The notes beneath the pieces are model-generated. The model had not been told where the DNA came from, ran no database searches, and worked only from the letters and a program-made list of their open reading frames with translations. From Halorarum halophilum (GTDB lineage: Archaea > Halobacteriota > Halobacteria > Halobacteriales > Haloferacaceae), in NCBI RefSeq assembly GCF_013401515.1, contig NZ_CP058531.1, positions 1 to 64,000 of the forward strand: a DNA stretch of 64,000 nt, read 5' to 3'. Positions 13,018-29,118 of this stretch are shown here, in pieces (the first letter of the stretch is position 1; each line of letters starts with the position of its first letter). Position numbers and translations under genes: made by a program.

Positions 13018-14424
13018 CTACGAGTGACTGCCGTCTACCAGCCGCTTTGCCTTTTCCCAGATAGATCTACCCAATGAGTCCGATTCGTCGGCAGATGTCT
13101 CGTCTTGGGACATCTGATCGTTTGTGGTCGACGCTAATGATGTTCGGAGTTCTGTGAGTTCCGTTTCGAGCGTCTCGATCCGTTCGCGCTGTCCTTCGAC
13201 TGTGGCCTCTCGTTGTTCGAATTTCGCCGAGAGAACCTTGTTCCGTTCGTTGAGATAGGCACGTTCACGCCCATCCGACCACCCACCTGTTTCGGCTTCC
13301 GTCGGCTCAATTGGTTCCCCCACCTCCGTCTGTGCTGTTTCCGTTGACTCGCTCGTCTCTGCCTGTGGTGCTCCCATAGGCTCGCCCACTTCCGCTCCTT
13401 TTTTCTCGGCCGACGGACCGTTCGACACTGCTGTGACCTCTTCGTCGAAGCCGTCGGATTCCTCCTGCTCGGCCGTCTCACTCCCTTTCGAGGGCTCGTA
13501 GAACTCGCCAGTGTTGTCGATGGCGCGCTTGACCGTCCGTTCACCGTAGGTGTCCTCGTTCGAGTAGCGGATTTCGTCCCATTTCTCTCGGTAGAGGTCC
13601 GACTTGCGGAACAACTGGTCCACCCACATCGCGTCTCCACCCGTCCAGAATGCCAGCAGACAACACAGCGCCATATCCGCTTCCGACTGACTCGGATATC
13701 CGCTCGTCCCGCCTCGCCACAATCGGTCGAACTTCTCGCCGTTCGATGCGTTCCGCGCCTTCTCAAGCAGTTCTTCGTCGGAGAACTTGACCTCCGTTAC
13801 CGATTCCTCCGGAAGGCCGGCTGCCCCGGTATCGACCGAATGAGTCGTCTCTTCCGACATCTCCCTGCCGCCCATCGACGGCTCCTGAACGTACTCACGA
13901 TGCACCTCGACGAGCGCATCCTGCCGTTCTTCCACGCTCTGCGGCTTAACGTCGACGCGATCGCCCGTCATGGTGAAGAACCGCGCCGACTCGTACATCT
14001 CCACGCTCCCGTGGCGGTTCCCGCCCTCGGGCAACTCCCCTTCGACCAGGACGTGGAATCCAGTCCCCGACGGGGAGATTTCCGTGTAAGAATCAAGCCG
14101 GTTGACGATGTCACGAGCGTCGTCGTCGATGCTCGATGTTTCTGGATCCCGGCAGTCATCAAGGTCGATCCCGACGAACGGATCGTTCTCACTGAACACG
14201 AAGCCGAGTCCATCCGCCTCGTCGCTCCGGATGTACTCGAGTGCAGTCTCGAAGTTGGTCCACGTCTCCGGATCAGTAGACGAGGCGAACACCCCCGTCC
14301 CTGGGGTAATGGGAATCTTGGTTGGCTTCCCGTCGCGCTCCTCTTCGCGCCAGCAGATCCACTGGTCGACGTCGACGAACTCACGTGGTACTCCTACCGG
14401 ATTTGTGACACTGTTTTCACTCAT
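13018..14424 (-). CDS. Primase-like replication protein (NrS-1/prim-pol type)
   Basis: A 468-residue protein from ATG 14424. Residues about 10-175 match the N-terminal domain of phage and plasmid prim-pol proteins: QWICWREEERDGKPTKIPIT, LGFVFSENDPFVGIDLDDC (acidic residues of the catalytic site) and SPSGTGFHVLVEGELP. Residues about 220-300 match the NrS-1 polymerase helix-bundle domain (KFDRLWRGGTSGYPSQSEAD, then ALCCLLAFW). The C-terminal third is low-complexity and then a coiled coil (ERNKVLSAKFEQREATVEGQ). No helicase domain is attached. It probably primes or starts replication of the element, and the iterons just upstream fit that. Confidence 0.75.
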   Translation of the reverse strand: MSENSVTNPVGVPREFVDVDQWICWREEERDGKPTKIPITPGTGVFASSTDPETWTNFETALEYIRSDEADGLGFVFSENDPFVGIDLDDCRDPETSSIDDDARDIVNRLDSYTEISPSGTGFHVLVEGELPEGGNRHGSVEMYESARFFTMTGDRVDVKPQSVEERQDALVEVHREYVQEPSMGGREMSEETTHSVDTGAAGLPEESVTEVKFSDEELLEKARNASNGEKFDRLWRGGTSGYPSQSEADMALCCLLAFWTGGDAMWVDQLFRKSDLYREKWDEIRYSNEDTYGERTVKRAIDNTGEFYEPSKGSETAEQEESDGFDEEVTAVSNGPSAEKKGAEVGEPMGAPQAETSESTETAQTEVGEPIEPTEAETGGWSDGRERAYLNERNKVLSAKFEQREATVEGQRERIETLETELTELRTSLASTTNDQMSQDETSADESDSLGRSIWEKAKRLVDGSHS

Positions 14425-14548
14425 GGTTCTCAGACCCTGTGTCATCGGCAGTCCACACCCTCTCAGCTTGCTGACAAACCTCCCCTGCGGCCTGCGGCCC
14501 CGCGCAACCCACTCTCCGACGGCCACCCCCCACCACTCTACTAGTCGG

Positions 14549-14800
14549 ATTTTGGTCGGAACAACACTCGATCTGAGCCGATAATCGCCCGACATGGCGA
14601 TGTTCCACCCAATGTTCCACGCATCGGGCTGACACGAATGAGCGGGATGTCGCGTCAGAAATGGGTGGAACACTCTGCCGTCCTGCGATTTTGGGCGGAA
14701 CACTAAACATGATCACGGCGGTCCCGTTAGATTGGGTGGAACACTTCGCCCTCTTGCGATTCCGAAAGTCGGATATTTCATACATCTTCTCGAAATATTA
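14549..14800. repeat. Iteron array between the virD4-like and primase-like genes
   Basis: The 12-mer GGGTGGAACACT or close variants recur at 14663-14674, 14693-14704 (GGGCGGAACACT) and 14734-14745, with a weaker one near 14555 (GGTCGGAACAACACT). Inverted forms lie at 14601-14611 (TGTTCCACCCA) and 14612-14620. Two copies extend to a 28-base unit ending CC.TC.TGCGATT, at 14663-14690 and 14734-14761, spaced 71 bp. An AT-rich stretch follows (GATATTTCATACATC). This is the layout of Rep-binding iterons or an autoregulatory operator, about 240 bp upstream of the primase-like start. Confidence 0.65.
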
Positions 14801-17800
14801 GGTGGAGTCGTCCTCTGTGTCGAGCGTGAAGCTGACAAAGAGGTGGGTCAATTCACCGTCGATTCTCTGTCTATCTGTCTCTACTTCGATATACTCCTTG
14901 AGCCGTCGTGTGAACCAGCTATTGCTCACTACCTCAACGCCAAGGTCGTCTGCCCACGACTCGTACGCTGAGTACACCTTCGACTTTCGAACGGCTACGT
15001 CCTCGTCAGTCTCGGTGAGGTGCTGGTCCGCGAAGATGCCGAGTGCTTCCTTCTTGTCGAGGTCGGCAATGCTGTTTGCTTGGTCGGATTCCTCGGCGGC
15101 TTCAGCGGTCGCCTCGGGGTTGGGGTCCGACTCTGCTTCCGCTTTATCGGGTTCAATCGTAGACGGTGTCTCCTCGGGGGACCCGTCCGGGTTACTGGGT
15201 ACTGTCTCAGCACTCGTCGCTTCGGTCTGATCAAGTTGATCGTCGGCCTCCGCGGTAGCCAGCTGCGGACCGTCGTCAACGAGCGTCTCAATCGGTGCTG
15301 TCTCACCCTGCTGGTAGACGACCGGATCGCCACCCTCGGGGAGGATGACAATCGCGTATGCGTCGTGGGTGTATTCGGGGACAGGCAGTTCCCGTTCGGG
15401 AATGAACGGCTTCTTGATCGGCACCCACTCGGTCTCAAACGCCTCTTTCGAGTCGTAGGTGTGGGTGGTGTCGTCCTCCAGAACGATGTACTGGTTGATG
15501 TCGGGGTCATAGGTGTAGACCGCCGGCACATCGCGGTCCATCGCCGTGTCAACACGCTGAATCCGCGCATCGTCGCTATCGCCTTCAACAGGCAGAACCG
15601 CGTCTCCGGTTTCCTCGTCGCGTCGCCACATCGACATTCGCGTGTCATCGTTGCTGGTCGCCGGACGGACAGCCGTCAACCGCTGGCCGGTCTCAATGTG
15701 CCGCACCTCCAGCTGGTGGGGGAACGTGTAGAGGCGAATTTCGTTGCTGTCGTCGATCTCCTTGACCGGGGGATGCAGAATTCCCTCGATCCGCTCGGCC
15801 CAGTATGAGTCGTTCTCCTCGGGCCGGACGATGAACAGCGGGATCGCCTCTTCGTCCTGTGCCTTTCGGAGATTCGTCAGCAGTTTCGCTGGCTTACTCG
15901 GTGTCGTGGTCTCGACTTCGATCACGAACTCGTCGTCCAAGTCGGGATGGGTCGCCCGTCCGTCGGGCTGTTCGCTCCCATCCTGCGGGACGACCGTCGT
16001 ATTGAACCCTGCCGTAGTCAGCGCTCGTTCCGCCTCGTACACGGCGTTGTCGTGGTCTTCGCTGCCCGCCGCCTGCACGTCGCCTGTGTCGGGCGCGACG
16101 GCCTCCTCGCCGCGCTCGGTGAGCGAGATGACCAGCTGGTCCTCCTCTGTGTCGAGTCCGACAGTGAGCAACTGTGAGCGTTCTCGGACCGCTCCCAGTT
16201 CGTCGTAACTCGGCGGCTCCACGTTTTCGTCACCGGCGGTGAACAGTTCGCGTAGTTCCTCGTCCACCTCCTCGACAGGCACCTCGCCGTTCTCCTCGCG
16301 CACCTCGTGTCTGAGCTGGATGGTGCGGACAACCTTCGCGAGCGCCTGATCGAGGTCGGCGTTCGTCGTGCTGAGTCGCTCCTGCACGTCCTCCGGGGAG
16401 TCACGCGGCTCGGGCTCCGGTTCGGGTACACCGAACACCTCGTCGGTTCGGGTCTGCACTCGGTCAATCGCGCTCTCGACACGCTTCGACTTCTCGCCGG
16501 TCAACGGCTCGTCGCTCTCGGGGTGGCCCTCGGGGATCGGTAGCGGGTCGACGCTGAACGGCTTGGGGCCCGTCTCGCCGAACGTCGGACTCGGCACTTG
16601 GGCGATCCACTCCCCACGCGGGAGCGACGCGATTCGGTCTTTGAACTCTCGGGGGCTCATCTCCTCATGAGCCATCGCCTCCGCGATCTCGCGGTCGACC
16701 GAGATTTTCCCGACCAGCGTCGTACCGATGTTGTTCAGCGCGTTTAGGTAGAGCCGCCGGCCACCTTCCTCCTCGATCTGTTCGGGGAACTGCATCGACA
16801 ACCCGACCGACAGCCGGAAGCCACGACCCTGTTCCAGCAGTCGATTCATGATGTCCGACGTGACAACCGACGCCGCCTCGTCGACGAGGAGATTGACCAC
16901 GTACTCCTCGGGCTTGTCGGAGAGGTCGTCCGACTGCTCGCGAAGCGCGTCCTCGAGGTTGCTCAGAATCAGGCCGCTCAGAAGTTTCGTCGGTTCGGCC
17001 CGCAGATTGCCAAGGTCGAAGATGACGACCGTATCGTCATCAAGCACCTCCCGAAAGTCGAACTCTTGGTCAGTGTTGTTGAAGATGTCTCGCAGCCGCC
17101 CGTCCTGTGAAACATACGCGAGGCGGTTGCTGACCCCTCCCATCACGCGACTGAACGCTGTCTGGTCCAACTGGAGTTGCCGGTCGATCCGCCGCCGGTC
17201 GTCGGGATCGCTCGATTGCGGCGCGTGTTCGGGCTGTGGCTTGGGTGGCCCGGCTTGCCACAACTGATCAAGCGCGTATTCGAGCTGCCGATGGGCGAAG
17301 TAGTCTTCATCCGCGCGGTACTGGCCGTTGTCTCGCCCATACTCGGCGTCGAAAAGCGCGGAGATGAGCGCCCGAATGAGCGTCGGAGCGACGGTCGCGC
17401 TCTCGTACTTGGCGCTTCCCATCGTGAGCTTCAGGATCTCCTCGTAGTGGTCGGCGGTCCGCTGGATCGCATCGATCCGACTCAGGCCATTGTCGAGCGC
17501 CGGTCGGAGATTGAAGAACGAGAAGCCGGGCAGAATGTCGGGGATCGAGAAATGGACGACGTTCTCCTCCATGTCGTCGACGCCGAAGCGGGCGGCGTGG
17601 GACCGCATGTAGTTCTCGGGCAGGCCGTCACCCTTCGGGTCGACCAGGACGATTGGCCCGTCCGTATGTTCGTACAGCGACAGCGCGTCGTTGATCAGCG
17701 CCTTCGACTTGCCTGACCCAGTGGTCCCGAACCGGCCGTAGTGGGTCGGGAGGAGCGACGGCGGGACGTAGGTCGGGTCGTCCTCGGGCGTCCCTGTCTC

Positions 17801-19303
17801 GTCCAACGCTCGGCCGATCGCCAGCCCACCCGTGTCGTGGAAGGAATCGGCGTGATCAGGCGCCGGCCGTTGGAGCGGATTCTGGCTCTCCTGTTTCGCG
17901 TCGGTCCCTCGGCGGCCCTCCATCGAGAGATTTTCCCCCGACGGAACCGTGATGAGGTTCGCGAGTTCGCTGGCGTTGAACGTGAAATCAAACCGAGTCT
18001 TGCGGCCACCGGTGACGAGTTTACGGTCCAGTAGACGTTCGAGGGCGCTCCGGGCGTACTGCTCTTTCTTGCTCTGACGGAAGCCGCTCCCGCGCAGGCG
18101 GTGGCCGTTGAACTGGTAGAACTCGCCATCGAGCGCGTCGAAGCCTGAGGCAAGGGCGTCAAGGCGCGTATCCAGTTCTTCCTCAGTCGTGTCGTCGCTC
18201 GGGATTGCGACGGCACGGGCGTTGACTGTGAACGTCCGCTTGGGCTGTTTGTCGTCGAGCTGATCTAGCCGCATCTCGTCACGGTCGCTCAGTTCGTGTT
18301 CGTCGGGCGTGGTGGGTTCGATGAAGTCCCAGATCTTCCCATACCACGTATCTAGATTGTGTTTGATGTCGTGTTTGCGCTGCCACGCGTCGGGCGACCA
18401 GTCTGCCTTCCGCCGGAACACGACCTGGAAGGCGATGGGTGCCTCGGATTCAACGAGATGGTCAATGATCGTCGCGAGCGGCACCCGCCGCTCGGAGTCG
18501 TCGGACGGGGAGGCCGTCTGGTCGTGGAAATCGGCGATGGTCATCATCCAGTCTTGCTTGTGCTCTGCGGCGAGCGCGTGCCACCGGACGCCCATCGGTG
18601 TGAGGTCGTTGATCGGTGGCCGGGCGAGGACTGTCCCGTCGTCGGTGAGCGTCGGGCGGGTGAGCGTGGTTGGCTCGACGCAACGCTGTGCGTCATCGAG
18701 ACGGAACGTGCCGTTGCTATACTCAACCGCCGTCGGATCGGGGATGTCCTCTTCGTCGTCTGCTTCGTTCTCCTCGTCAGCAGGGTCGTCACTCTCGCCC
18801 GTCTCGTTGTCGTCCGTGTCTCCCTCGGTCTCCTGCTTCTCTCTCGTCAGCAAACCGCCGTCACCGAGAATGCTCAGCCCGCTCGTGCCGTCGTCAATCA
18901 TGTCGGCCGCACCGGGCGTGTAGTAGAGCGAGTCGCTGTCGAGCCGGTCGGCAAACTCCTCTCGCTGGTACTCGACCGGATGGACGAGTCGGTGGGCGAC
19001 GTCCATCTCCACACGGTCGATGTCGAACGTGGTCGGGTACATCGACTCCAGTCGGTCTTCCAACGTGGTCAGGTCGCCGTCGGCGCCGACGTAGAACTCC
19101 ACAGGCTCGTCTGCGCCCTCACTCAGCGCGAGGAACTCGAACTGCGGGGGATACGACCCGTCTCCGGGCAACAGCCGTGTGACGCCACTCGTGGACTCCT
19201 CGACCGTGACCTTGTGGAGACTCTCGATCAGTCGCGGGATCGCCTCGGTGTGAAGCGACTGTGACGAGGGGCGCACTCGGAGGTACTCACGAGCGTTGCT
19301 CAT
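14798..19303 (-). CDS. VirD4-like conjugation ATPase with extra C-terminal domains
   Basis: A 1501-residue protein. A VirB4-style N-terminal region fills about 500 residues with an acidic linker. The ATPase core has Walker A GTTGSGKSK at about 526-534, DPKGDG near 555, and Walker B NLLVDEAAS near 804, followed by LSVGLSMQFPEQ, as in VirD4/TraD coupling proteins. Residues about 1085-1165 look like a restriction-nuclease fold (DEFVIEVETTTPSKPAKLL). Residues about 1417-1495 resemble the D5/P4-primase C-terminal winged helix (SKVYSAYESWADDLG...SNSWFTRRLKEYIEV). No membrane span is evident. It probably pumps or presents DNA for transfer. The start overlaps the VirB4-like stop by 4 bp. Confidence 0.75.
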   Translation of the reverse strand: MSNAREYLRVRPSSQSLHTEAIPRLIESLHKVTVEESTSGVTRLLPGDGSYPPQFEFLALSEGADEPVEFYVGADGDLTTLEDRLESMYPTTFDIDRVEMDVAHRLVHPVEYQREEFADRLDSDSLYYTPGAADMIDDGTSGLSILGDGGLLTREKQETEGDTDDNETGESDDPADEENEADDEEDIPDPTAVEYSNGTFRLDDAQRCVEPTTLTRPTLTDDGTVLARPPINDLTPMGVRWHALAAEHKQDWMMTIADFHDQTASPSDDSERRVPLATIIDHLVESEAPIAFQVVFRRKADWSPDAWQRKHDIKHNLDTWYGKIWDFIEPTTPDEHELSDRDEMRLDQLDDKQPKRTFTVNARAVAIPSDDTTEEELDTRLDALASGFDALDGEFYQFNGHRLRGSGFRQSKKEQYARSALERLLDRKLVTGGRKTRFDFTFNASELANLITVPSGENLSMEGRRGTDAKQESQNPLQRPAPDHADSFHDTGGLAIGRALDETGTPEDDPTYVPPSLLPTHYGRFGTTGSGKSKALINDALSLYEHTDGPIVLVDPKGDGLPENYMRSHAARFGVDDMEENVVHFSIPDILPGFSFFNLRPALDNGLSRIDAIQRTADHYEEILKLTMGSAKYESATVAPTLIRALISALFDAEYGRDNGQYRADEDYFAHRQLEYALDQLWQAGPPKPQPEHAPQSSDPDDRRRIDRQLQLDQTAFSRVMGGVSNRLAYVSQDGRLRDIFNNTDQEFDFREVLDDDTVVIFDLGNLRAEPTKLLSGLILSNLEDALREQSDDLSDKPEEYVVNLLVDEAASVVTSDIMNRLLEQGRGFRLSVGLSMQFPEQIEEEGGRRLYLNALNNIGTTLVGKISVDREIAEAMAHEEMSPREFKDRIASLPRGEWIAQVPSPTFGETGPKPFSVDPLPIPEGHPESDEPLTGEKSKRVESAIDRVQTRTDEVFGVPEPEPEPRDSPEDVQERLSTTNADLDQALAKVVRTIQLRHEVREENGEVPVEEVDEELRELFTAGDENVEPPSYDELGAVRERSQLLTVGLDTEEDQLVISLTERGEEAVAPDTGDVQAAGSEDHDNAVYEAERALTTAGFNTTVVPQDGSEQPDGRATHPDLDDEFVIEVETTTPSKPAKLLTNLRKAQDEEAIPLFIVRPEENDSYWAERIEGILHPPVKEIDDSNEIRLYTFPHQLEVRHIETGQRLTAVRPATSNDDTRMSMWRRDEETGDAVLPVEGDSDDARIQRVDTAMDRDVPAVYTYDPDINQYIVLEDDTTHTYDSKEAFETEWVPIKKPFIPERELPVPEYTHDAYAIVILPEGGDPVVYQQGETAPIETLVDDGPQLATAEADDQLDQTEATSAETVPSNPDGSPEETPSTIEPDKAEAESDPNPEATAEAAEESDQANSIADLDKKEALGIFADQHLTETDEDVAVRKSKVYSAYESWADDLGVEVVSNSWFTRRLKEYIEVETDRQRIDGELTHLFVSFTLDTEDDST

Positions 19304-21255
19304 ACGGTCACCCCCGACCCGACGGCACTCTCGTCGTTCGGCTCGTCCTCCGGCGGGTCGACGATTTCCATCTCCTCGGGCAACGCCGTGACCTTCACCG
19401 GATACCGGCCTTTATCCTGAACACAGACGAGCGCGTGACTATACCCACGCTCGCGGGTGCCCGGCTTGGCGTCACGAAGGAATTGTGCCTCCCGTGCGCT
19501 CAAACCGAGCTTCTTCCGATGCTCTTCTGAGAGGCCGGGAAGCTTCTGGAGGAGTTTGATCGACGACTCGTTCGCCAGCACCTCGGCTTTCTCGTGAACG
19601 AAGAAGTCGCTAATCTCCTGTGTGACCAGGTGGACGCTGAGGTCGTGGTGGCGGCTGTGTCGATAGGCACGTTCGAGCCAGTCGAGCGACCCCTCACTTT
19701 GCATCAGGTAGTGCGCCTCGTCGATGGCGAGAATCACGCGTTTGTCCGTCTGCTTGGCGCGCTCGTACACGGTGTCAAAGAGTACCTGTAACATGAGCGC
19801 AATCTCCTGGTCGGCCTCACCCTGCTGGAGGTCGAGATACGACACCGTCTCGCCCTCGAGATCGATGTCGGACGACCCAGCGAGGTTGTCGAACTCGCCG
19901 TCGCCGGTGAATGGCCGCATCGAGATGCGGAGGTTCGCCGCGAGTTCGCCCCACTTCTCGGACTCGGTCGCCGTGACTTCCGTCAGGTCCGACTCAGCGT
20001 TTGCCACGAACGCGTCGACGTCCTCGGCCATCTCGCCAAGGATTTCAAACACATCGATGACGGTGGGGCTCCCGTTGCTGTGGGTCGCCGGGTCGGTCGT
20101 GATTCCCTGCCGCCGGTACGCCTCGTGGACGGCGTCACCGAGGATCGCTCGTTCCTCCTTGTCCAACCCGGAACCGGCGCTATCGATGTGTCCGAAGTAG
20201 GTTGTGAAGAAGCCCATCACGCTCGACACCCGCTGGCCGTACGGGTTCAACTTGGAGGTCCGCTCCAGCACGTGCTGTGGGGTCGCCTCGATTTCGAGCG
20301 GGTTGATCTGCTGGCGGCCACCGACGATGATGTGTTCCGCGCTGAGTTCGTCCGCGAGACTCCGGAAGCCCTCCAGCGGGTCGACCATGATGAGGATCGT
20401 CTCAGAGTCGTTGGCGATCTCACGCAGGTTCAGGAGTTTTGCCGTGACTGACTTACCCGACCCGACCTGCGCCGCCGCGAGGACGTTGTAGCCGTTCGGC
20501 CGCTGGAAGCGGTCCACGACTACGGGCGCATCCGTCGTGGCGTGGTAGCCGTAGAGGACACCGGACTCTTCGATCAACGTCGACGCGGAGAACGGGAACA
20601 GCGCACCGAGGGCGCTGCCGAGCATCGGCGTGGTCGCACTCGGCAACCACTCGCTGATGGTGTCCTTCGCGACGGGACTCGCGCTCACCAGTCCGTCAGA
20701 CTGGTCATAGTCGACCGACCGAACGGTGAGCTGTTGCTTTTCGAGTTCCGCGCGAATCCGCTGGCACCGTTTTTCGACCTGTTCTTTTGACTCCCCCCGG
20801 ACAGGGAGGTACGCCGAGACATCGAAGATCGACTGCGACTCATCTGTCAACTGCGTCAGCACGTCCTCGTGGTCGCTGATCCGTCGTTCGGTCAGCCCAA
20901 TCGACGGATCGCCGTTCTCCTGTTTGCCTCGGTGAACGGTCTGAAGGTCACGGATCGCGTTTTCGACCTGCGTGATCGCTTGTTCCGTCTCACGGGGTTC
21001 GGCGTGAATCGAGAGGCCAACGTCGGCGCTCGGGTGGGTCGTGATCGTGTCGAGATGGCCCGGATTTGCGGTATCAGGCCAGTCGGTGATCATGAGCGTC
21101 TTGACCCACTGATCACCGGAGCGGGTGGCATCGGATTCGAGCCGGATACTCGCGGGGCCGACGTTCTGGGCGTGGGCGTCGGACTCGTCAAGTGTCTGGT
21201 CGTCGTCGACGTCGATACTGGTGAAGCGGTCGAGTAGCGTTTTGATGAGTGGCAT
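19300..21255 (-). CDS. VirB4/TraC-like conjugation ATPase
   Basis: A 651-residue protein. Walker A AQVGSGKSVTAK lies at about 262-273, followed by ILIMVDPLEGF. Walker B is VILAIDEAHYLMQ near 507-519, then RHHDLSVHLVTQEISDFF, the conserved VirB4 motif after the second acidic site. The N-terminal 240 residues are the variable VirB4 domain. VirB4 proteins power assembly and substrate passage of type IV secretion systems. It is placed between the PrgI-like and VirD4-like genes with a 3-bp gap and a 4-bp overlap, so all three are one transcript. Confidence 0.8.
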   Translation of the reverse strand: MPLIKTLLDRFTSIDVDDDQTLDESDAHAQNVGPASIRLESDATRSGDQWVKTLMITDWPDTANPGHLDTITTHPSADVGLSIHAEPRETEQAITQVENAIRDLQTVHRGKQENGDPSIGLTERRISDHEDVLTQLTDESQSIFDVSAYLPVRGESKEQVEKRCQRIRAELEKQQLTVRSVDYDQSDGLVSASPVAKDTISEWLPSATTPMLGSALGALFPFSASTLIEESGVLYGYHATTDAPVVVDRFQRPNGYNVLAAAQVGSGKSVTAKLLNLREIANDSETILIMVDPLEGFRSLADELSAEHIIVGGRQQINPLEIEATPQHVLERTSKLNPYGQRVSSVMGFFTTYFGHIDSAGSGLDKEERAILGDAVHEAYRRQGITTDPATHSNGSPTVIDVFEILGEMAEDVDAFVANAESDLTEVTATESEKWGELAANLRISMRPFTGDGEFDNLAGSSDIDLEGETVSYLDLQQGEADQEIALMLQVLFDTVYERAKQTDKRVILAIDEAHYLMQSEGSLDWLERAYRHSRHHDLSVHLVTQEISDFFVHEKAEVLANESSIKLLQKLPGLSEEHRKKLGLSAREAQFLRDAKPGTRERGYSHALVCVQDKGRYPVKVTALPEEMEIVDPPEDEPNDESAVGSGVTV

Positions 21256-21258
21256 GTG

Positions 21259-22317
21259 TTAGACCCTCTTGTCGGCGTCGCCAACCGTGACGACGGGTAT
21301 GGAACGAACGCGGTCGGTCGTCGAACGATACTGGGTACGGCGGCCCGTCCAGAACTCCTCGATCAGCGTTGCAAGACGGTCGGCCGAGACGGGCTCACAA
21401 TCGCACGAGTCGAGACCACGGATGGCCGCCTGCACGTCGTCGAGGCGCTGTTCGAGCGTCTCGCGCTGTTCTTGTTCGACTTCGGCGTCTGAGAGGCCGC
21501 TACTCTCGGCACCGATGAACGCGAGTAACCCGCCGACGTAGGGGAGCGACTGGAGCTGTGAGGTCGCCCCCCGCTCGGCCAACTGTACGTCGCGGATGCT
21601 GACCGGCACGAGGATGTGGTACTCGCGGAGGCTGGTGCCTCGTGCCCGGAACTCCGCCGGAAGGCGTGTCTCGTACGTTTCGACGATGTTCTGAAGCGCG
21701 TCGTTCGCCTGGACGTCGGGGTCGTCACGGCGATCCCGATAGCTCTCGGTGATCCGCTCAGGGTCGATCGACCGGGCGCTGGCGTGAATCTGGATCGGGA
21801 AACTGAGCGTGTTCAACGCGTTGCCAAGTGCGTCGGCGGCCCCGTCCCACTCGTCATGGGTCGCGAGCGCCATGTTCGCTGGGTCGACGCGGACGGCGGC
21901 GACAAGGTGGCCGTCCTGTCGCTCTACCGTATCGGCTTCGGGGACGAATCGGGCGACCTGTGTGAGTGTCTCGGGGCGGTCCTCGGGGGCTGTGTCCACG
22001 GCAGAGCGGGTGGTTTCGCGAGTGGCGAATCGCGCGATACGCGCAAGCCATCGATGCGGCGTCATGTGGTTCGGCGCGATGTAGACAATCGCACCTGCCA
22101 CGAGTAAGATCGCAAGTGCCACTGTGAGGCCGATCGTGACTCCCCAGCGCCCGCCGAGGCGAGAGCTGAGGGAGACAACCAGCAAGGCCCCAAACATTGC
22201 GGGGATGAACAGCTTGAGGTCGTCGAGGCTGTAGTCGATATCAACGCCGACGATTTCGTCGTCGGCGCCGAACTCATCGAGTACCCGTCGGTGGGGATCG
22301 CGGCTTCTGTTGCTCAT
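21259..22317 (-). CDS. PrgI/VirB3-like membrane protein of the transfer module
   Basis: A 352-residue protein. Two close membrane spans lie at about residues 34-50 and 58-80 after an acidic N-terminus (RRVLDEFGADDEIVGVDIDY), as in PrgI- and VirB3-type subunits. The following 260 residues are soluble and resemble the N-terminal domain of VirB4/TraC (VAAVRVDPANMALATHDEWD...ALGNALNTL..PIQIHASAR). It therefore looks like a VirB3-VirB4 N-domain fusion, with the VirB4 motor encoded next. A 14-bp gap separates it from the upstream gene. Confidence 0.65.
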   Translation of the reverse strand: MSNRSRDPHRRVLDEFGADDEIVGVDIDYSLDDLKLFIPAMFGALLVVSLSSRLGGRWGVTIGLTVALAILLVAGAIVYIAPNHMTPHRWLARIARFATRETTRSAVDTAPEDRPETLTQVARFVPEADTVERQDGHLVAAVRVDPANMALATHDEWDGAADALGNALNTLSFPIQIHASARSIDPERITESYRDRRDDPDVQANDALQNIVETYETRLPAEFRARGTSLREYHILVPVSIRDVQLAERGATSQLQSLPYVGGLLAFIGAESSGLSDAEVEQEQRETLEQRLDDVQAAIRGLDSCDCEPVSADRLATLIEEFWTGRRTQYRSTTDRVRSIPVVTVGDADKRV

Positions 22318-22331
22318 GGATTGGATTGAAG

Positions 22332-23867
22332 TTAGCCGTTGTGCGGGTCTGTGTCGTCAGGATTCGCGTGTTTCTGGTTCTGCTCGGTCGGCGGCCAGTC
22401 GTCGTCGAGCGACCAGACGCGGTCGATGACCGACCGGATGCTGTACATAGTGCGCGCACCCCACACTGACCGCTGTTCAGCCAGCCGGCGACCAACGTAC
22501 AACGCACCGACGGCTGGGGTGGCAATCAGCGTGGACTCGAAGACAGTGGGAGGGAGAAGCGAACCCGAAGTTAGGTATGAAGTGGTGGCACCAGCGAGCG
22601 CGACGAACAGCGCGTACCAGGAGCCGAACACCCACGGCGCTGGGTTGACCGGCTGTCCGTGAATATCGCGGTCTTTGCGGAGTGCTTTTCGGAGGTAGAA
22701 CGCGACGCCGGCTGACCCGACGCTCCAGAAGATGAGCGCACCGAACAGCATCCCTTCGGGGAAGACATTGTGCCGGATAAGAATCCAGTCGACCGCGCCA
22801 AACAGTCCGACGGCGGCAAGGCCGGCGACGAACTGCCAGCGCGGGCGGCCGTGTCCAACTGATGGTGTCTCACCACGTCGTCGTTTGTCGCGGAATAGTT
22901 CTCGTTCGTAGGCACGCTCCTGCTCGTAGACGTGGACAACGTATCCGACAGCGATCCCGACGAAGGCGAGCCATGGACGATCGAATAGTACCGATCCGAT
23001 AGCTTGGTACTGGGTAACTGTGGACCCCGCCCAGTGGAGCCCCGTTTCGGGGGAAACGAATAACGCTCCGATAGCACCGGCAGCTGCAACACCCATCGCG
23101 AGTAGTACAGTCAGTCCGATTGTCGCGACAAGCGCTCGTCGAAGGATGACTGCCCGTCCTGTGTGAGCGAAGACACGGAGTTTCTCGGAGAACTCGCGTA
23201 GGCACGCCTTCGTATATTTCAGCGAAGGCTCCTTACTTGCAGTCTTGAGTTCAATCGCCCGCTTCGTTTTCTGGTCAGCGACATTGTTGTCTTCCCACTC
23301 GACACAGTCCCAGCAGATCGTGATGTTCTCATCAATGGGACCGTCAATCTCTCCTTCTGGCTGTACTGATCCCATGACGTACCCGACACGGCCTCTAGGA
23401 ATGACTACACTCCCACAGACCTGGCAGTTGTAGTTATCGCGTCGAGCAACCCGATGAATGAGCTGGTCACTCGTCTCTACTTCAGCTGTTTGTCGCTCAG
23501 GAAGTAGGGAATGTAGCTCATTCCCGACTGTTCCGATAGCCGTGTGAAGCCGAGTTCGAAGCGATGACGACACCATCCTGTCGCTGTCGATATTAGAGGT
23601 CTGATTTGCGTCTTGGCTACCCATTCTGCGCTGACGCCGTGCCTTAGCTGTGGATGTCTCTTCGCGAAGCTGTTCGTCATCCTTCTTTAGGCAATCGTGG
23701 CAGACAGTGACAAGGTTCTCGACTCGATGGTCATCTTGTTTGACTGGAACGGCGGCGAGTCCCCGTTCCGTCTTGGGGTACCCGATAGTCCCACAGAGTT
23801 GGCAGGTATGACGGTCCCGTTTGAGTGCGGCATCGCTTGCCTCACTATAATCAGCGTCTCTGGTCAT
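22332..23867 (-). CDS. Membrane protein with two HNH-like zinc domains
   Basis: A 511-residue protein. Residues about 20-60 have CQLCG...ENLVTVCHDCLKK and residues about 146-190 have CQVCG...ENITICWDCVEW. Each is a four-Cys treble-clef unit of HNH-nuclease type, though the usual first catalytic His is not clear in either. After a charged linker come four to six membrane spans between residues 240 and 480. The start overlaps the next upstream gene by 4 bp. The zinc units face the cytoplasm if the positive-inside rule holds. I know no named family with this fusion; its place in the operon suggests a part of the transfer channel or a DNA-handling subunit. Confidence 0.6.
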   Translation of the reverse strand: MTRDADYSEASDAALKRDRHTCQLCGTIGYPKTERGLAAVPVKQDDHRVENLVTVCHDCLKKDDEQLREETSTAKARRQRRMGSQDANQTSNIDSDRMVSSSLRTRLHTAIGTVGNELHSLLPERQTAEVETSDQLIHRVARRDNYNCQVCGSVVIPRGRVGYVMGSVQPEGEIDGPIDENITICWDCVEWEDNNVADQKTKRAIELKTASKEPSLKYTKACLREFSEKLRVFAHTGRAVILRRALVATIGLTVLLAMGVAAAGAIGALFVSPETGLHWAGSTVTQYQAIGSVLFDRPWLAFVGIAVGYVVHVYEQERAYERELFRDKRRRGETPSVGHGRPRWQFVAGLAAVGLFGAVDWILIRHNVFPEGMLFGALIFWSVGSAGVAFYLRKALRKDRDIHGQPVNPAPWVFGSWYALFVALAGATTSYLTSGSLLPPTVFESTLIATPAVGALYVGRRLAEQRSVWGARTMYSIRSVIDRVWSLDDDWPPTEQNQKHANPDDTDPHNG

Positions 23868-25756
23868 CGCTGAGTCTCCCGAACAGCATTCATACTGTCG
23901 TGGTGTTGCCGCTCGTACCGTCCCTGCCGGTACTCCCCATCTTGGACTACCCTTCGGGCGTCGTAGGTGGTCTCGTGCGACTCATCGTAGAGAACAACAG
24001 GTTCTCCGTCACGTTTCTCTGAGAGTTCCTTGAGCCCTCCTTCATCAAGTAGCCAACCGGAGTTCGAGTCCCCTTGACTGACGGACTTGAACTCACCGTC
24101 GTCCTTGAAATAGCCCGCATTGTACTGGTCTTGATCCAGTTCCATCCGAGTCATCGCTTTCTCGAAGCCGAGCCCGTCAGGAACGCTGTCAGCGTACTCC
24201 TGCGTCGGGCGGCTAGTGATTTGGTCCCACGCGCTCGAACTCGCACTACTACTCTTCGTGGAACTACTCGAGGCGGACACAGCTGAGGCAGACGTACTCT
24301 CGTTCGTGCCGCCAGTCGCGCCGAACGAGGGCGACGTCGGGGGTGCCGGTGGCCCGCGGACACCTTCGACCCTCGAACTGCCATCGCCGAGTTCACCGGC
24401 GACCTCGGAACCGTTCGCCGGTCCGAGTCGGCCGCCGAACGCATCGTTGTTCTCATGCGAGAACGGTGAGCCATTCAGCGGGTCGACCGCCCGTCCGGCG
24501 CCGGCAGTATTGACTCCCTCGTCGCTACTAGATGCTCCCGACCGACCCGAACCACCGAGGTTCAGATTGGATCGGGAGAAGCTCCGTCCAGCAGCTGCGC
24601 CGAGGGCACCGGCGGCAAACATCTGTAATGGGCGCATCTTTCGCCCGCCAACGAATAAGAACAACGGGGCAGTCAGTGCCGTGAACCACAACGTCAGCAC
24701 CATCACCATCATGACATCGTCGCCAATCACCAAGCCTGCTGCCCAGCCGAGTTGTCCTCGAAGCGCATTCACCACGGGATAGCCGACCCCGAGGATGATC
24801 GCCGTCGGGACAGGCATGAGTGCCGCGGGCGCGAACAACGACCGGAAGAACTCGCCTTTCTGGGCGATCCATTCGAAGATCCAGATGTCCGGCAACGACA
24901 GTGCGATGAACACCGGGTACACCGGCATCAGGATGAACGGGGCGACGTAGGACAACCCGAACACAATCGCGATGAGTGCGAGCAGGACGCCCGACGAGAG
25001 GTAGATCAGGATCGCCGCAGCGCCGGCGCTGCCCGCCGTCCCTACCACCGACTGGAGGCTCGTGAAGATCTCATCACCGGTGGGCGCGAACGTCTGTGCG
25101 ATCCCGAGCGAGAGGTGCAACACGAGCGAGCACCAGATCCACGACGCGAGGATTCGGAAGAGTGCAATCCACCCCTCCGATAGTTTCGTTTTCGCCTCAA
25201 CTGTCGGGCCGGACGGCAGGAATGCGGTGAGTCGGAGCAGGAGCATTGAGAGTATCCACACGCCGATCGCGGCGGGCAGGCCCACGTTGAGCCATACAGC
25301 GCGGACCGTGGTCATCGGTGGGTTGGTCGGCTCACCGGCGAGTGCCACGTTTCCGTTTCGGAGTGGGACGGGCCGGCTGACCAGCATCTGAACGACGTCC
25401 TCGGCGGCGTTCTGGAGCTGAGAGAGCACCCAGTCTTTGACGTCGTCGCCGACAGCGTCGACGGTCTGTACCAGCCCTTGGCAGACTTGCCCACCGATAC
25501 CGCTGACGCCATTACACACGCCATTCGCGTTGACCGCTGACCCGTTCGTGCTGTTCGCAGGCACAGCCGGGGTCGTGGGAGTCGCCGGCGTCGTCGGTGT
25601 CATCAGCGACAAAGACGATGTCGACGACAGTGAGGACGGTCTAGGCGGTTCATCACTGGATACGGGCGTCGGTGGGAGTGCTGTGGCTGGGGATGCGGCA
25701 GCGGTGCTAACAACCAGCAGGAGTACGAGCCCGAGCAGATGTGTGGAGTTATTCAT
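23864..25756 (-). CDS. VirB6/TrbL-like polytopic membrane protein
   Basis: A 630-residue protein. From ATG 25756 it has a signal peptide (STHLLGLVLLLVVSTAAASP) and an acidic linker. Five or six long membrane spans follow between about residues 160 and 400, several Gly/Ala-rich. The C-terminal 230 residues are hydrophilic, Ser/Gly-rich and poorly conserved-looking. Size and topology fit VirB6/TrbL, the inner-membrane channel of type IV secretion. The frame extends 34 codons upstream of the chosen start, without a good start codon. It follows the pilin-like gene by 46 bp. Confidence 0.65.
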   Translation of the reverse strand: MNNSTHLLGLVLLLVVSTAAASPATALPPTPVSSDEPPRPSSLSSTSSLSLMTPTTPATPTTPAVPANSTNGSAVNANGVCNGVSGIGGQVCQGLVQTVDAVGDDVKDWVLSQLQNAAEDVVQMLVSRPVPLRNGNVALAGEPTNPPMTTVRAVWLNVGLPAAIGVWILSMLLLRLTAFLPSGPTVEAKTKLSEGWIALFRILASWIWCSLVLHLSLGIAQTFAPTGDEIFTSLQSVVGTAGSAGAAAILIYLSSGVLLALIAIVFGLSYVAPFILMPVYPVFIALSLPDIWIFEWIAQKGEFFRSLFAPAALMPVPTAIILGVGYPVVNALRGQLGWAAGLVIGDDVMMVMVLTLWFTALTAPLFLFVGGRKMRPLQMFAAGALGAAAGRSFSRSNLNLGGSGRSGASSSDEGVNTAGAGRAVDPLNGSPFSHENNDAFGGRLGPANGSEVAGELGDGSSRVEGVRGPPAPPTSPSFGATGGTNESTSASAVSASSSSTKSSSASSSAWDQITSRPTQEYADSVPDGLGFEKAMTRMELDQDQYNAGYFKDDGEFKSVSQGDSNSGWLLDEGGLKELSEKRDGEPVVLYDESHETTYDARRVVQDGEYRQGRYERQHHDSMNAVRETQR

Positions 25757-25802
25757 CAGGGGAAGGTGGGGAGCGGTCGTTGGATCGCTCCGTCGTGGGA
25801 AT

Positions 25803-26240
25803 TCAGATGAACGGGACGAGGTCGACACAGGTCGCGAGGTTGACGCCCGTGAACCCAATGAACAGCTCCATCACGAGCGCGAACAGTGGCGTCGTGATGG
25901 AGGCGAACGCCGCCCGGTTCCGCCAGTCCTTGATCTCTTGCACGGACTGGGGGTTTTTCGGGAACGCGGAGGCGTTGTGCAGTATATACGCGAGAATTGC
26001 GCCGCCGATCATCAGCAGGCCAACGATGAGTGGAGCAGCCTGATTGATCGTGTCCGCAAGGGGGGTACCACAGATACCCGCTCCTGCCTGTGCGGAGGCA
26101 GGAGCGGTCATTCCGACGAGGGCAGCAACGACCACCTTTCCCGCCGATTGGATATACGTCCGGGTTGTACCTGGGATGCGATTACCCACGGATGTGTGGG
26201 TCTGTGCTTGTTCTTCGGACTGCGTATCGCTCGAAGTCAT
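25803..26240 (-). CDS. VirB2-like pilin candidate
   Basis: A 145-residue protein. A charged leader (MTSSDTQSEEQAQTHTSVGN) precedes a first hydrophobic segment ending near ASAQAGAGIC, which reads like a cleaved signal. Two further spans (PLIVGLLMIGGAILAYIL and TPLFALVMELFIGFTGV) are joined by a short basic loop. That is the VirB2 plan: leader, short periplasmic turn, two spans. It is the first gene of the minus-strand module, with a TATA-like element about 40 bp upstream. A Cys in CGTPL and one near the C-terminus may pair. Confidence 0.55.
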   Translation of the reverse strand: MTSSDTQSEEQAQTHTSVGNRIPGTTRTYIQSAGKVVVAALVGMTAPASAQAGAGICGTPLADTINQAAPLIVGLLMIGGAILAYILHNASAFPKNPQSVQEIKDWRNRAAFASITTPLFALVMELFIGFTGVNLATCVDLVPFI

Positions 26241-26421: not shown

Positions 26422-27753
26422 TCAGCGCTGAGTGATCGTCATTGGGATTCCGTTCGACGTCCGCATCGTCATTTGTGGTTCGATCTCGAGACTGTTCGAA
26501 CTATCCCACTCAAACTGGAATCGCTGACCGACTGTTGCGAGTATTATCTTCGCTTCTAGCCTAGCGAACTCACGTCCAATACAGGTCCTACGGCCCCCAC
26601 CGAAGGGAATGTACGCGAAGTCGTGGAGTTCCTCTTCGGATCCATCCGTCCATCGATCCGGCTGGAACTCATAGGGATCATCATAAAATCGCTTGTCTCG
26701 GTGGGCATCGATCACCGAGAGGTGGATCTGCTCGCCCGCTGGAATGCGGAACCCGTCAATTTCCACCTCGGTGTCTGTCCGGCGTGGAATCGTGTGAATC
26801 GGTGGATACAGCCGAAGTGCCTCAGTCACGATTCGGTCAGTGAATTCTAATTTGGGTAGCGTCTCGGCTGCTGGCCGATCCCCGTCGAGAACTGTACTGA
26901 GTTCGTCATGGAACCGCTCTCGAATCGGCGGATGGGTCGCCAGTAAGTACCAGATGAATCCAAGAGCTGCGGCCGTAGTCTCGTGACCCGCGAATACCAT
27001 CGTGACGAGTTGATCCTCGATCTCCTCGGTAGACAGCTGTGGACCCTTCTCGGTATCACGAGCCATCTGCAACTGAGAAAGGAGGTCTGGTGGTCCGCCA
27101 CTAGGAGTGTGACGAGACGAATTCTCGGCGAGGAGCTTTCGAACCTCTTCTTTGAGCCGTTTGCGAGACTGCTTGAAGTCCCGACGTGCGGGCGTCGGCA
27201 CCCAAGGCGGTAGTACCCAGGACGTCGGCTCGAACCACCCATTGAGCCCATCGGCGGCCTCTCGGAGCCCTTCGTCCTCACCTGGAGTTAATTCTCGACC
27301 AAAGAGCGTCGCGAACAGCACATCAAGCGTGAGGTTACGCATCTCGCGTTCGACGTCGAGAAGCTCGTTATCGCCCCAGGTCGCTAAGCGCCGCTCAGCA
27401 CACTTAACCATCTCATCGGTATAGCCTCTGATCTGTCCCCGGAAGAAGAGCGGTTGCATAACCTCTCGTTGCCGCCGCCACTGTGCGCCTTCCGTTGAGA
27501 GCAGACCACTCCCGAACGCCCGTTGGAAGTCCTCCGTTTTTCCAAACGAGTCAACATCTGTTACGAGGACACGCTTGAGCTGTTCAGGATGGGTGAGGAC
27601 ATGGATATCGTCGAGAGTGGGAAGATCCATTCGATAGACATCCCCGCACTCAGCGGTGGCGACCTCTACGAACTGGAAGGGATTGCGAACGAATAGTAGT
27701 GCGTGTTTGAGAATGGGATGGCCAGATGGTTTCGGGGGAAGAGGCGCTGCCAT
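26422..27753 (-). CDS. Cytochrome P450
   Basis: A 443-residue protein with all P450 landmarks: WRRQR in the C helix (about 92), oxygen-binding I-helix AGHETT at 255-260, ExxR as EALR at 311-314, and the heme loop FGGGRRTCIG at 384-393 with Cys391 as iron ligand. P450s insert one oxygen atom into organic substrates using electrons from a ferredoxin; no redox partner gene is adjacent. It is soluble, without an N-terminal anchor. It is transcribed away from a two-winged-helix regulator whose start is 210 bp off, so co-regulation is likely. The substrate is unknown; lipids, terpenoids or carotenoids are possible. Confidence 0.92.
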   Translation of the reverse strand: MAAPLPPKPSGHPILKHALLFVRNPFQFVEVATAECGDVYRMDLPTLDDIHVLTHPEQLKRVLVTDVDSFGKTEDFQRAFGSGLLSTEGAQWRRQREVMQPLFFRGQIRGYTDEMVKCAERRLATWGDNELLDVEREMRNLTLDVLFATLFGRELTPGEDEGLREAADGLNGWFEPTSWVLPPWVPTPARRDFKQSRKRLKEEVRKLLAENSSRHTPSGGPPDLLSQLQMARDTEKGPQLSTEEIEDQLVTMVFAGHETTAAALGFIWYLLATHPPIRERFHDELSTVLDGDRPAAETLPKLEFTDRIVTEALRLYPPIHTIPRRTDTEVEIDGFRIPAGEQIHLSVIDAHRDKRFYDDPYEFQPDRWTDGSEEELHDFAYIPFGGGRRTCIGREFARLEAKIILATVGQRFQFEWDSSNSLEIEPQMTMRTSNGIPMTITQR

Positions 27754-27807
27754 GAGTGACGATCAAATTCGCTGTCAGTGTAAAAACTCCGGACGTCTCT
27801 TCGGTTC

Positions 27808-27850
27808 CTGATACCCGCCATACACTTATACAGCGTCAGAGGGTGTACAC
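27808..27850 (+). repeat. Possible degenerate left end of the dispersed repeat
   Basis: GATACCCGCCATACACTTAT then ACAGCGTCAGAGGGTGTACA can be aligned to the GATACGCGCC.TGTATTCAGC left end and the AGAGGGTGT inner block with small insertions. The match is weak. The segment also lies in the divergent promoter region of the P450 and regulator genes and could simply be a regulatory site. Confidence 0.25.
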
Positions 27851-27963
27851 GAAATGTATCTAATACAACAGCGATTACTGCTCCCGTGTTGGGCCTTTCA
27901 TCAGATATATATCCAATATCTTCATTAGAAATGGGAGAAATAATGACAATAGGAGGTGTACTT

Positions 27964-29118
27964 ATGTCGAGCGAACGCCAATCTCATGGGCCAACCTACG
28001 ACGAACCGGAGGTCAAACACCCGCTTACAGGCCAGATAGTTAACATTCGGAACTTCATTAACGAGCTTGTCGACTCCTCCCGTCTGGATGTTCTCAAAGC
28101 CCTGACCGACCATCAGCACCGTACACCATCCGATATCGAACAAATGGGAGAGGTATCGCGCCAGACAGCATCGAAACATCTGGCAGACCTCGCGAAGCGA
28201 GGGCTGACGAACCGGGGTGAAAACCCGCGTGAGCAACGAATCACAGCTGGCGGGAAATTCGTCGTCCAGTCGTTATCTACTCACTCAGATGTCGTGAGTC
28301 GCGAGCAGTTGGCGCTGTTAACTCGGTCGGCATCAGCGAGCCAATTATTGTATGCACTTAGCCGTGGCTCGGTTCGACCTCGGAATCTCGCACAAGAGGA
28401 ACGAATGTCGCCCTCTCGATCGACGATCCAGCGCACGCTCAGCACGTTTACTTGCCAGGGGTGGTGTCGAGAAGACCATGGACGATACCGACTCACGTCG
28501 ACTGGAACAGAGGTCTTGGAAGCACATCGGACCATCATAGACCGGACCACACAATCGGTCAAGAAGTCGACATTTCTCCAGCGGCTTTCACCAGCAAGAG
28601 CTGATTTCCCACCGGAAGCGCTCGCCGAAGCCGAGGTCGCTGTGTCAGATCCTTCTTCTCCTGGGGAAGCTCTCTCATTGGCCCTGAAACTCTGTGATCG
28701 GAATCTCCACCATTTCCGGGCCTTCACCTCGATCTATAACGCGCGGCTGTTCACTACCTACTACAAAATTTTCAACTTAGGGCTAGACGGGGAGGCAATT
28801 GTAGATGCGTCGGTTTACCAGCAAATCCGAGAAAACGAGCAGACGGCGCACCTCATTGATGACTCCGAATACGATCGGTATCGGTTACTCCGACTGCCTG
28901 ATAAAATGACGCTTGGAATCGGAATCTACGACGATCGAAAGGTGGCAATTGGGGCTTTCAACGAAACAGGGAACGGTAGACACACCGCGATCTTGCTGAG
29001 TTCGAACGATGAGTTTGTTGAGTGGGGAATCGATCTCTACGAATCAATTCGCGAGCAGGCGTGTCGTCCTTCACAACAAAAATCCCATCCGACTCAAGCA
29101 CACTCAAAGACGAGCTGA
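27964..29118 (+). CDS. Winged-helix regulator with FilR1/DUF1724-like domain
   Basis: About 384 residues from ATG 27964 (MSSERQSHGP); the frame extends 26 codons further upstream but with poor haloarchaeal codons. Residues about 20-95 form one winged helix (SRLDVLKALTDHQHRTPSDI, then SRQTASKHLADLAKRGL). Residues about 105-190 form a second (LYALSRGSVRPRNLAQEERM, SRSTIQRTLSTFTCQGW). The C-terminal 180 residues match the FilR1-type ligand domain seen in many haloarchaeal regulators (LLRLPDKMTLGIGIYDDRKV). It faces the P450 gene across 210 bp and is the likely regulator of it. Confidence 0.8.
   Translation: MSSERQSHGPTYDEPEVKHPLTGQIVNIRNFINELVDSSRLDVLKALTDHQHRTPSDIEQMGEVSRQTASKHLADLAKRGLTNRGENPREQRITAGGKFVVQSLSTHSDVVSREQLALLTRSASASQLLYALSRGSVRPRNLAQEERMSPSRSTIQRTLSTFTCQGWCREDHGRYRLTSTGTEVLEAHRTIIDRTTQSVKKSTFLQRLSPARADFPPEALAEAEVAVSDPSSPGEALSLALKLCDRNLHHFRAFTSIYNARLFTTYYKIFNLGLDGEAIVDASVYQQIRENEQTAHLIDDSEYDRYRLLRLPDKMTLGIGIYDDRKVAIGAFNETGNGRHTAILLSSNDEFVEWGIDLYESIREQACRPSQQKSHPTQAHSKTS

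Follow-up and report, generated by a model that had tools for sequence, protein, structure and literature searches.

The plasmid specificity of the Streptomyces DNA motor TraB is set by its C-terminal winged helix, through the recognition helix, and the oriT of conjugative plasmids with a type IV secretion system (T4SS) commonly adjoins the gene for the coupling protein. TraB is described as binding plasmid repeats of 8 bp (clt) and translocating double-stranded DNA (PMC12857230, PMC4170104), and the alpha protein of phage P4 as a single protein with a bacterial-type primase (PMC4234260). Little is known of how the megaplasmids of haloarchaea select and transfer their DNA. No cis site of a haloarchaeal T4SS was named in our literature search, which covered few subscription papers and no bioRxiv preprints, and MOB-suite typing in PLSDB labels 132 of 134 plasmid records with the primase described here as 'non-mobilizable'. 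Here we describe an array of short repeats which we read, with slightly better than even confidence, as a transfer locus (oriT- or clt-like) that would be read by the tail of a T4SS ATPase, tail and repeats forming one exchangeable cassette.

The analyzed window spans the initial 64 kb of contig C3 (186,742 bp), in a genome of 4,277,959 bases and four contigs with haloarchaeal relatives. Its minus strand carries a run of genes that begins with a TrbL/VirB6-like protein (23864–25858; Pfam TrbL_3 above cut-off) and continues with a 511-aa and a 352-aa protein, a VirB4-like T4SS ATPase (19300–21255; NCBIfam CD1110-family VirB4-like model, E 2e-51, below the model's cut-off), and a VirD4/HerA-like ATPase of 1501 aa with a predicted C-terminal D5-type winged helix (14798–19303). 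A 373-bp gap (14425–14797) separates the last of these from a PrimPol-type (AEP) primase with an NrS-1 HBD domain (13018–14424; Pfam PF22763, E 4e-29; PHROG DNA primase, E 1e-93), whose start at 14424 is kept in all seven aligned sequences. The VirD4/HerA-like ATPase matches Pfam DUF87 at 28.6 bits against a cut-off of 23.2, and its Pox_D5 match lies just below cut-off with the whole protein and above it with the tail alone. Hydropathy predicted no membrane segment in this ATPase, and Pfam found DUF87/T4SS-type ATPase matches instead of an SF3 helicase domain. Structure prediction of the whole ATPase reached a pLDDT of only 38.6 and was left out of the evidence. No relaxase was named among the genes of the run 13018–25858, the part of C3 that was scanned.

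Several neighboring genes merit separate mention. The 511-aa gene (22332–23867, minus strand) encodes an HNH-endonuclease-like N-terminal region with weak IscB and IcmJ/DotN matches; its product is possibly a nickase or a partner in the coupling complex. The gene at a comparable place in locus L014 has HNH family matches too, and three neighbors in L013 have none. PHROG 5156 matches both the window ATPase and a separate 378–395-aa gene directly before the short ATPase of other loci (L016:3421–4557, L017:3455–4642), so two genes kept separate in the short family may be fused in the long ATPase. Past the T4SS run, at 26422–29118, lie a cytochrome P450 gene and a divergent gene for an HVO_A0261/FilR1-type regulator.

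The gap holds six TGTTCCACCCA-type units, four in one orientation and two inverted, and in this the original prediction, which had placed such units between a VirD4-like and a primase-like gene, was borne out. The minus-strand units lie at 14733–14743 (repeat 1, TGTTCCACCCA, exact), 14692–14702 (repeat 2, TGTTCCGCCCA, one mismatch), 14662–14672 (repeat 3, TGTTCCACCCA, exact), and 14553–14563 (repeat 6, core-proximal, TGTTCCGACCA, two mismatches), and the inverted, plus-strand units at 14613–14623 (repeat 4, TGTTCCACGCA, one mismatch) and 14601–14611 (repeat 5, TGTTCCACCCA, exact). Two units described earlier as near-identical do stand 71 bp apart, starting at 14662 and 14733, as 29-base copies of 86% identity, and the AT-rich stretch reported beside the units is present if modest (63% AT at 14755–14797 vs. 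43% across the gap). The array itself is confirmed. The best 11-mer of the gap occurs in five copies at ≤1 mismatch; among 200 dinucleotide-preserving shuffles, the best 11-mer reached one, two, or three copies in 87, 112, and 1, respectively, and never the observed five. The 12-mer GGGTGGAACACT is not common elsewhere, as the prediction supposed, both of its occurrences in the 4.28 Mb genome being inside the array. On C3, TGTTCCACCCA at ≤1 mismatch has nine sites, five of these in the array, against 1.6 per contig under a first-order Markov model.

Homologs of the primase were compared at 189 loci drawn from PLSDB records, 80 loci of GTDB genomes, and further genomes of the order. At 152 of these (four with a frameshifted tail copy), a gene for a D5-tailed VirD4-like ATPase is followed by a gap of at least 150 bp and then by the primase gene. 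The remaining 37, with no D5 tail in intact or frameshifted form (cases of contig ends, insertions, and divergent primases), were excluded. Nine of the excluded loci have the conserved core described below: six of them have <1.3 kb of upstream sequence, while L043, L175, and L178 have >6 kb but no D5-tailed ATPase ending near the primase. The core was not found in the other 28, which are largely divergent primases without the ATPase.

In this comparison the gap is conserved as a layout and not as a sequence, its repeats (approximately 10–13 bp, found de novo) falling into about 18 types: A (TTCCACCC, 41 loci), D (TCCACGC, 26), B (TTACGGC, 23), C (TTCAGGGC, 22), H (6), F (5), E and G (4 each), C2 and D2 (3 each), D3 and B2 (2 each), and J, K, I, L, H2, and M (one locus apiece), where the splits D/D2 and C/C2 depend on a single base. 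Five of the 152 loci have no assignable type, an intact tail notwithstanding. The expectation that the window's motif should precede homologous primase genes thus held in part: the identical type stands there at 41 of the 152 loci, and elsewhere a different repeat in a comparable layout. BLAST of the gaps of types A, C, and D in PLSDB, aimed at orphan arrays lacking the ATPase such as a mobilizable plasmid would carry, returned 20, 13, and 13 records with gap matches, respectively. Types A and B of the long-ATPase family sit at nearly identical positions and orientations relative to the core. Units of TGTTCCACCCA stand 181, 111, 91 (inverted), 62 (inverted), and 14 nt from it, and those of GGTTACGGCAA 179, 120, 100 (inverted), 70 (inverted), and 13 nt. 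The core-proximal repeat is 13–15 nt off the core in most of this family, a position retained in homologs. Repeats of types C, D, E, and F, found in the short-ATPase family, are mostly near 100, 82, 57, and 26.

Two further elements, on which the original prediction was silent, accompany the variable repeats. A constant box of TCGCAAGACGGCG type abuts repeat 1 (14747–14759, minus strand, one mismatch to the cross-type consensus) and another copy abuts repeat 3 (14676–14688, minus strand, two mismatches). Across types, a box near AAATCGCAAGACGGCG stands ahead of a variable repeat by a few bases, with ≤2 mismatches in 20 of 49 representatives against a shuffle expectation of 0.3. Because the constant box stands beside the variable repeat, the site combines a fixed part with a variable one, which would suit two contacts. 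The second element, a conserved core of the form CCGAC-N23-GTCGG with an ACTAGTA element (14516–14548, minus strand), matches one pattern at 140 of the 152 loci, and six of the 12 loci missed have a relaxed match. The exact pattern occurs once in the window's genome, at the array locus. A core-like match away from a primase (W07:11955) sits in a coding frame and was rejected.

The core may be a promoter, a hairpin, or both. Of the 69 distinct cores, exact pairing with co-varying arms is seen in 47 (42 CCAAC/GTTGG, 4 CCGAC/GTCGG, and 1 ACGAC/GTCGT), but a hairpin is not universal, since the arms do not pair exactly in the other 22 (mostly of types D and F, with some GCAAC). One might take the whole gap as a control region of the primase, with the core as a BRE/TATA-type promoter plus inverted-repeat operator and the ATPase tail autoregulating through the repeats. 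The core resembles haloarchaeal promoters of the BRE/TATA type, lies 104–186 nt upstream of the primase start in the loci compared, contains the TATA-like ACTAGTATA, and in most cases has CCAAC-N22-GTTGG arms. An ATPase would make an unusual regulator, however, the repeats reach approximately 100–320 nt past the core in fixed layouts and, in some types, mixed orientation, and a promoter alone leaves the concerted change of repeats and tail, described next, unexplained. We consider this explanation improbable.

Alignment columns were scored for association with repeat bases across 735 columns (315 VirD4, 420 primase) from 80 VirD4 and 79 primase non-redundant sequences, with the VirD4 body and the primase serving as internal controls. 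With repeat types set by patterns picked after the repeats had been viewed, which favors an association, and descent left uncorrected, 29 of the 40 top columns fall in the winged-helix tail (residues 1417–1497; 14813–15055, minus strand), and the VirD4 body accounts for the other 11, leaving none for the primase. The top sites include the wing residues 1487, 1479, 1481, and 1485 and residue 1462, just ahead of the recognition-helix Trp, and several map to the wing and the start of the recognition helix in the predicted tail model.

Pairwise comparisons also single out the tail. L018 (type H) and L032 (type B) have VirD4 DNA that is 83–100% identical (100% in the first 2 kb compared) and are 76–100% identical from the core into the primase, whereas identity over tail and repeats (−1000 to −160) falls to approximately 15–61%. 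A dip of this kind recurs between L013 (type A) and either of these loci, and is absent across tail and repeats between L013 and L022, both of type A. The pattern is that of an exchange: on the evidence of these alignments, tail and repeats are swapped together, as a single cassette some 0.9 kb long whose flanks are near-identical. L013 and L127, which have different repeats, are 97% identical in the primase, 83% in the VirD4 body, and 32% in the tail. Where VirD4 bodies agree at 75% or more (815 pairs from 97 of the 152 loci, non-redundant), tail identity has a median of 0.85 in same-type pairs (n = 389, minimum 0.61) and 0.50 in different-type pairs (n = 426, range 0.29–0.96), against medians of 0.90 vs. 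0.79 for the bodies and 0.89 vs. 0.83 for the primases. The closest different-type exceptions are mainly D vs. D2, one-base variants whose tails are up to 0.96 alike.

The nearest relative of the window locus, L019 from Candidatus Halobonum tyrrellensis, has an ATPase with an overall identity of 0.895 to that of the window and TGTGACACCCA-like repeats where the window has TGTTCCACCCA. The final 76 residues are 0.58–0.80 identical, and the core arms differ on both sides (CCAAC/GTTGG in L019 vs. CCGAC/GTCGG). Linker stretches of the window ATPase near residues 126–200 and 1326–1400 likewise diverge from L019, which counts against a tail-specific reading, as do the 11 top columns in the VirD4 body. 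Three further points weigh in the same direction: the effect is weak among distant bodies (<60%), with tail medians of 0.42 in same-type (n = 64) vs. 0.36 in different-type pairs (n = 469); types D and D2 have nearly the same tail; and the five intact-tail loci noted above show no clear repeat. Nevertheless, because repeat type and cassette exchange track the tail and not the primase, the reader is probably the winged-helix tail of the VirD4-like ATPase. The primase, with none of the top columns and with 97% identical copies beside different repeats, is a less likely candidate. That the tail physically binds the repeats is, from these associations, very likely.

On a Halomontanus plasmid (L211:1900–2350), a decaying second module has an ATPase cut to 217 residues beside an intact primase frame, and five repeat-like units near TGTCCAGGGTA are each mutated differently, a single case. 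At four Natrinema loci (L040, L056, L138, and L139), the ATPase has an apparent frameshift before the winged-helix tail and the repeats are still intact.

The tail is predicted to be a winged helix of the Pox_D5/RFX/P4 origin-binding fold. An AlphaFold2 model of the tail has a mean pLDDT of 76.4 (approximately 87–92 across most of the domain) and aligns with RFX5 (Z 12.1, rmsd 2.2, 81 residues), RFX1 (Z 11.6, rmsd 1.7, 75 residues), the C-terminus of ASFV PrimPol (Z 9.8, rmsd 3.1, 79 residues), and the origin-binding domain of phage P4 (1ka8; Z 8.9, rmsd 2.5, 79 residues). The modeled D5-type tail (window 14801–15160) is thus nearer to eukaryotic RFX DNA-binding domains than to the P4 domain. 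At E values up to 1, Pfam matched Pox_D5 in 32 of 33 tails and RFX_DNA_binding in 22 of 33. PDB sequence searches gave weak matches for the tail (a Transposase-named entry, E 0.027; RFX1, E 0.074; RFX5, E 0.083) and a sole match at E 0.7 for the whole ATPase.

The shared fold with the P4 and ASFV PrimPol domains, together with the primase gene directly next to the array, is what one would expect of a P4- or iteron-type replication origin, acting as a second or transfer-time origin, in which the D5 winged helix would be the origin-binding domain, the HerA-like ATPase the helicase, and the PrimPol the primase. P4 alpha itself binds origin repeats via a winged helix (PMC4234260). Here, however, the ATPase is HerA/VirD4-like with no SF3 helicase domain found, and the repeats swap independently of the primase. 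C3 has its own Orc1/Cdc6 match at 92161–92448, approximately 78 kb from the array, as do all 17 complete plasmid records with the module or its primase, and the cumulative GC-skew minimum of C3 lies at 98,981, away from the array. The original prediction that the module replicates on its own, for which GC skew had been proposed as a check, is therefore not supported, and neither is the array as the main replication origin. We regard a P4- or iteron-type origin as rather unlikely.

Classical iteron incompatibility would need copies of the same type to avoid one another. Among 37 pairs of co-resident copies, 10 have a common repeat type, where shuffling gives a mean of 3.7, in a comparison blurred by draft genomes and decayed copies. 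Since same-type copies are not avoided, there is no sign of iteron incompatibility, and a role of the repeats as its determinant is unsupported. The earlier suggestion of a Rep-type site stands insofar as the array is a plasmid-specific set of predicted binding sites beside its likely reader; it is that reader which differs, being probably the ATPase tail.

Together, the Orc1/Cdc6 matches, the GC skew, the co-residence of same-type copies, and the T4SS genes therefore favor a transfer locus. One further alternative is that the gap serves a HerA-type motor in partition or packaging, as a centromere- or pac-like site: HerA-like motors act in packaging too, and one report (PMC10818511) proposes a recruitment role for ORF25 of pR1SE. 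We nonetheless hold this very improbable, given the VirB4-like and TrbL-like genes in the same run and an ATPase without a match in any of 50,697 phage records.

In the transfer reading, the array would be the cis-acting recognition locus of a haloarchaeal T4SS. The D5/RFX-type winged helix of the VirD4/HerA-like ATPase would read the plasmid's own variable repeats (TGTTCCACCCA here), ATPase hexamers would be loaded there, beside the constant box and the conserved core, and plasmid DNA would then be handed over to the T4SS. The primase of the adjacent gene would prime synthesis on the strand being transferred or exposed; hexamer loading and this role of the primase are what we infer, and a part of the gap in transfer replication is possible. 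As one exchangeable specificity cassette, recognizer tail and repeats could be replaced by recombination between the VirD4 body and the conserved core, switching transfer specificity in one step. This reading is favored because VirB4-like and TrbL-like genes share the run, because the repeats hold position while their sequence changes in concert, and because tail and repeats are exchanged together (L018/L032, L013/L127). The lack of a named relaxase in the run and of a membrane segment in the ATPase, unusual in a VirD4, counts against it. On this balance, we consider it fairly probable that the gap functions in transfer and not in replication or regulation. More generally, and tentatively, T4SS plasmids of haloarchaea may have a relaxase-independent transfer locus that is read by a coupling-type ATPase and whose specificity is switched by whole-cassette swaps.

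These results suggest that the plasmids may mark their own DNA for transfer by tail-read repeats. With a cis site and a named candidate for its reader, transfer becomes open to experiment. The roughly 18 repeat types, taken together with their tails, could serve at once for deciphering a DNA-recognition code of D5/RFX-type winged helices, and they are an example of a recognizer and its target moving as a single cassette.

Among known systems, iteron origins with Rep initiators likewise have direct repeats adjoining a replication-type gene, but the reader here appears to be a transfer-type ATPase and same-type copies in one genome are not avoided. An Orc1/Cdc6 origin with ORB elements differs in that no orc1/cdc6 gene stands beside the repeats. 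The locus resembles a conjugative oriT as a cis site beside a coupling-protein gene, although no relaxase was recognized in the run 13018–25858 and the coupling-type ATPase itself appears to recognize sequence. With P4 alpha it shares the C-terminal winged-helix fold and repeats as the presumed target. It differs from P4 alpha in having ATPase and AEP primase on two genes, in the HerA/VirD4-like character of the ATPase, and in the presence of Orc1/Cdc6 on the plasmids. As in TraB–clt, a motor of the FtsK/HerA superfamily has a C-terminal winged helix (here from DUF87 and the model; a HerA/VirD4 and not an FtsK relative), and short cis repeats are matched to that winged helix, here as judged by association and cassette exchange. 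Unlike TraB–clt, the system is archaeal, its predicted winged helix is of D5/RFX type, a PrimPol gene lies next to it, and longer repeats are joined by a constant box and a core. Because TraB works without a T4SS, whereas VirB4-like and TrbL-like genes belong to the run here, and because P4 alpha is an initiator with a primase domain, we file the locus under neither. TraB–clt is its closest working parallel, and the P4 origin-binding domain is its closest domain parallel.
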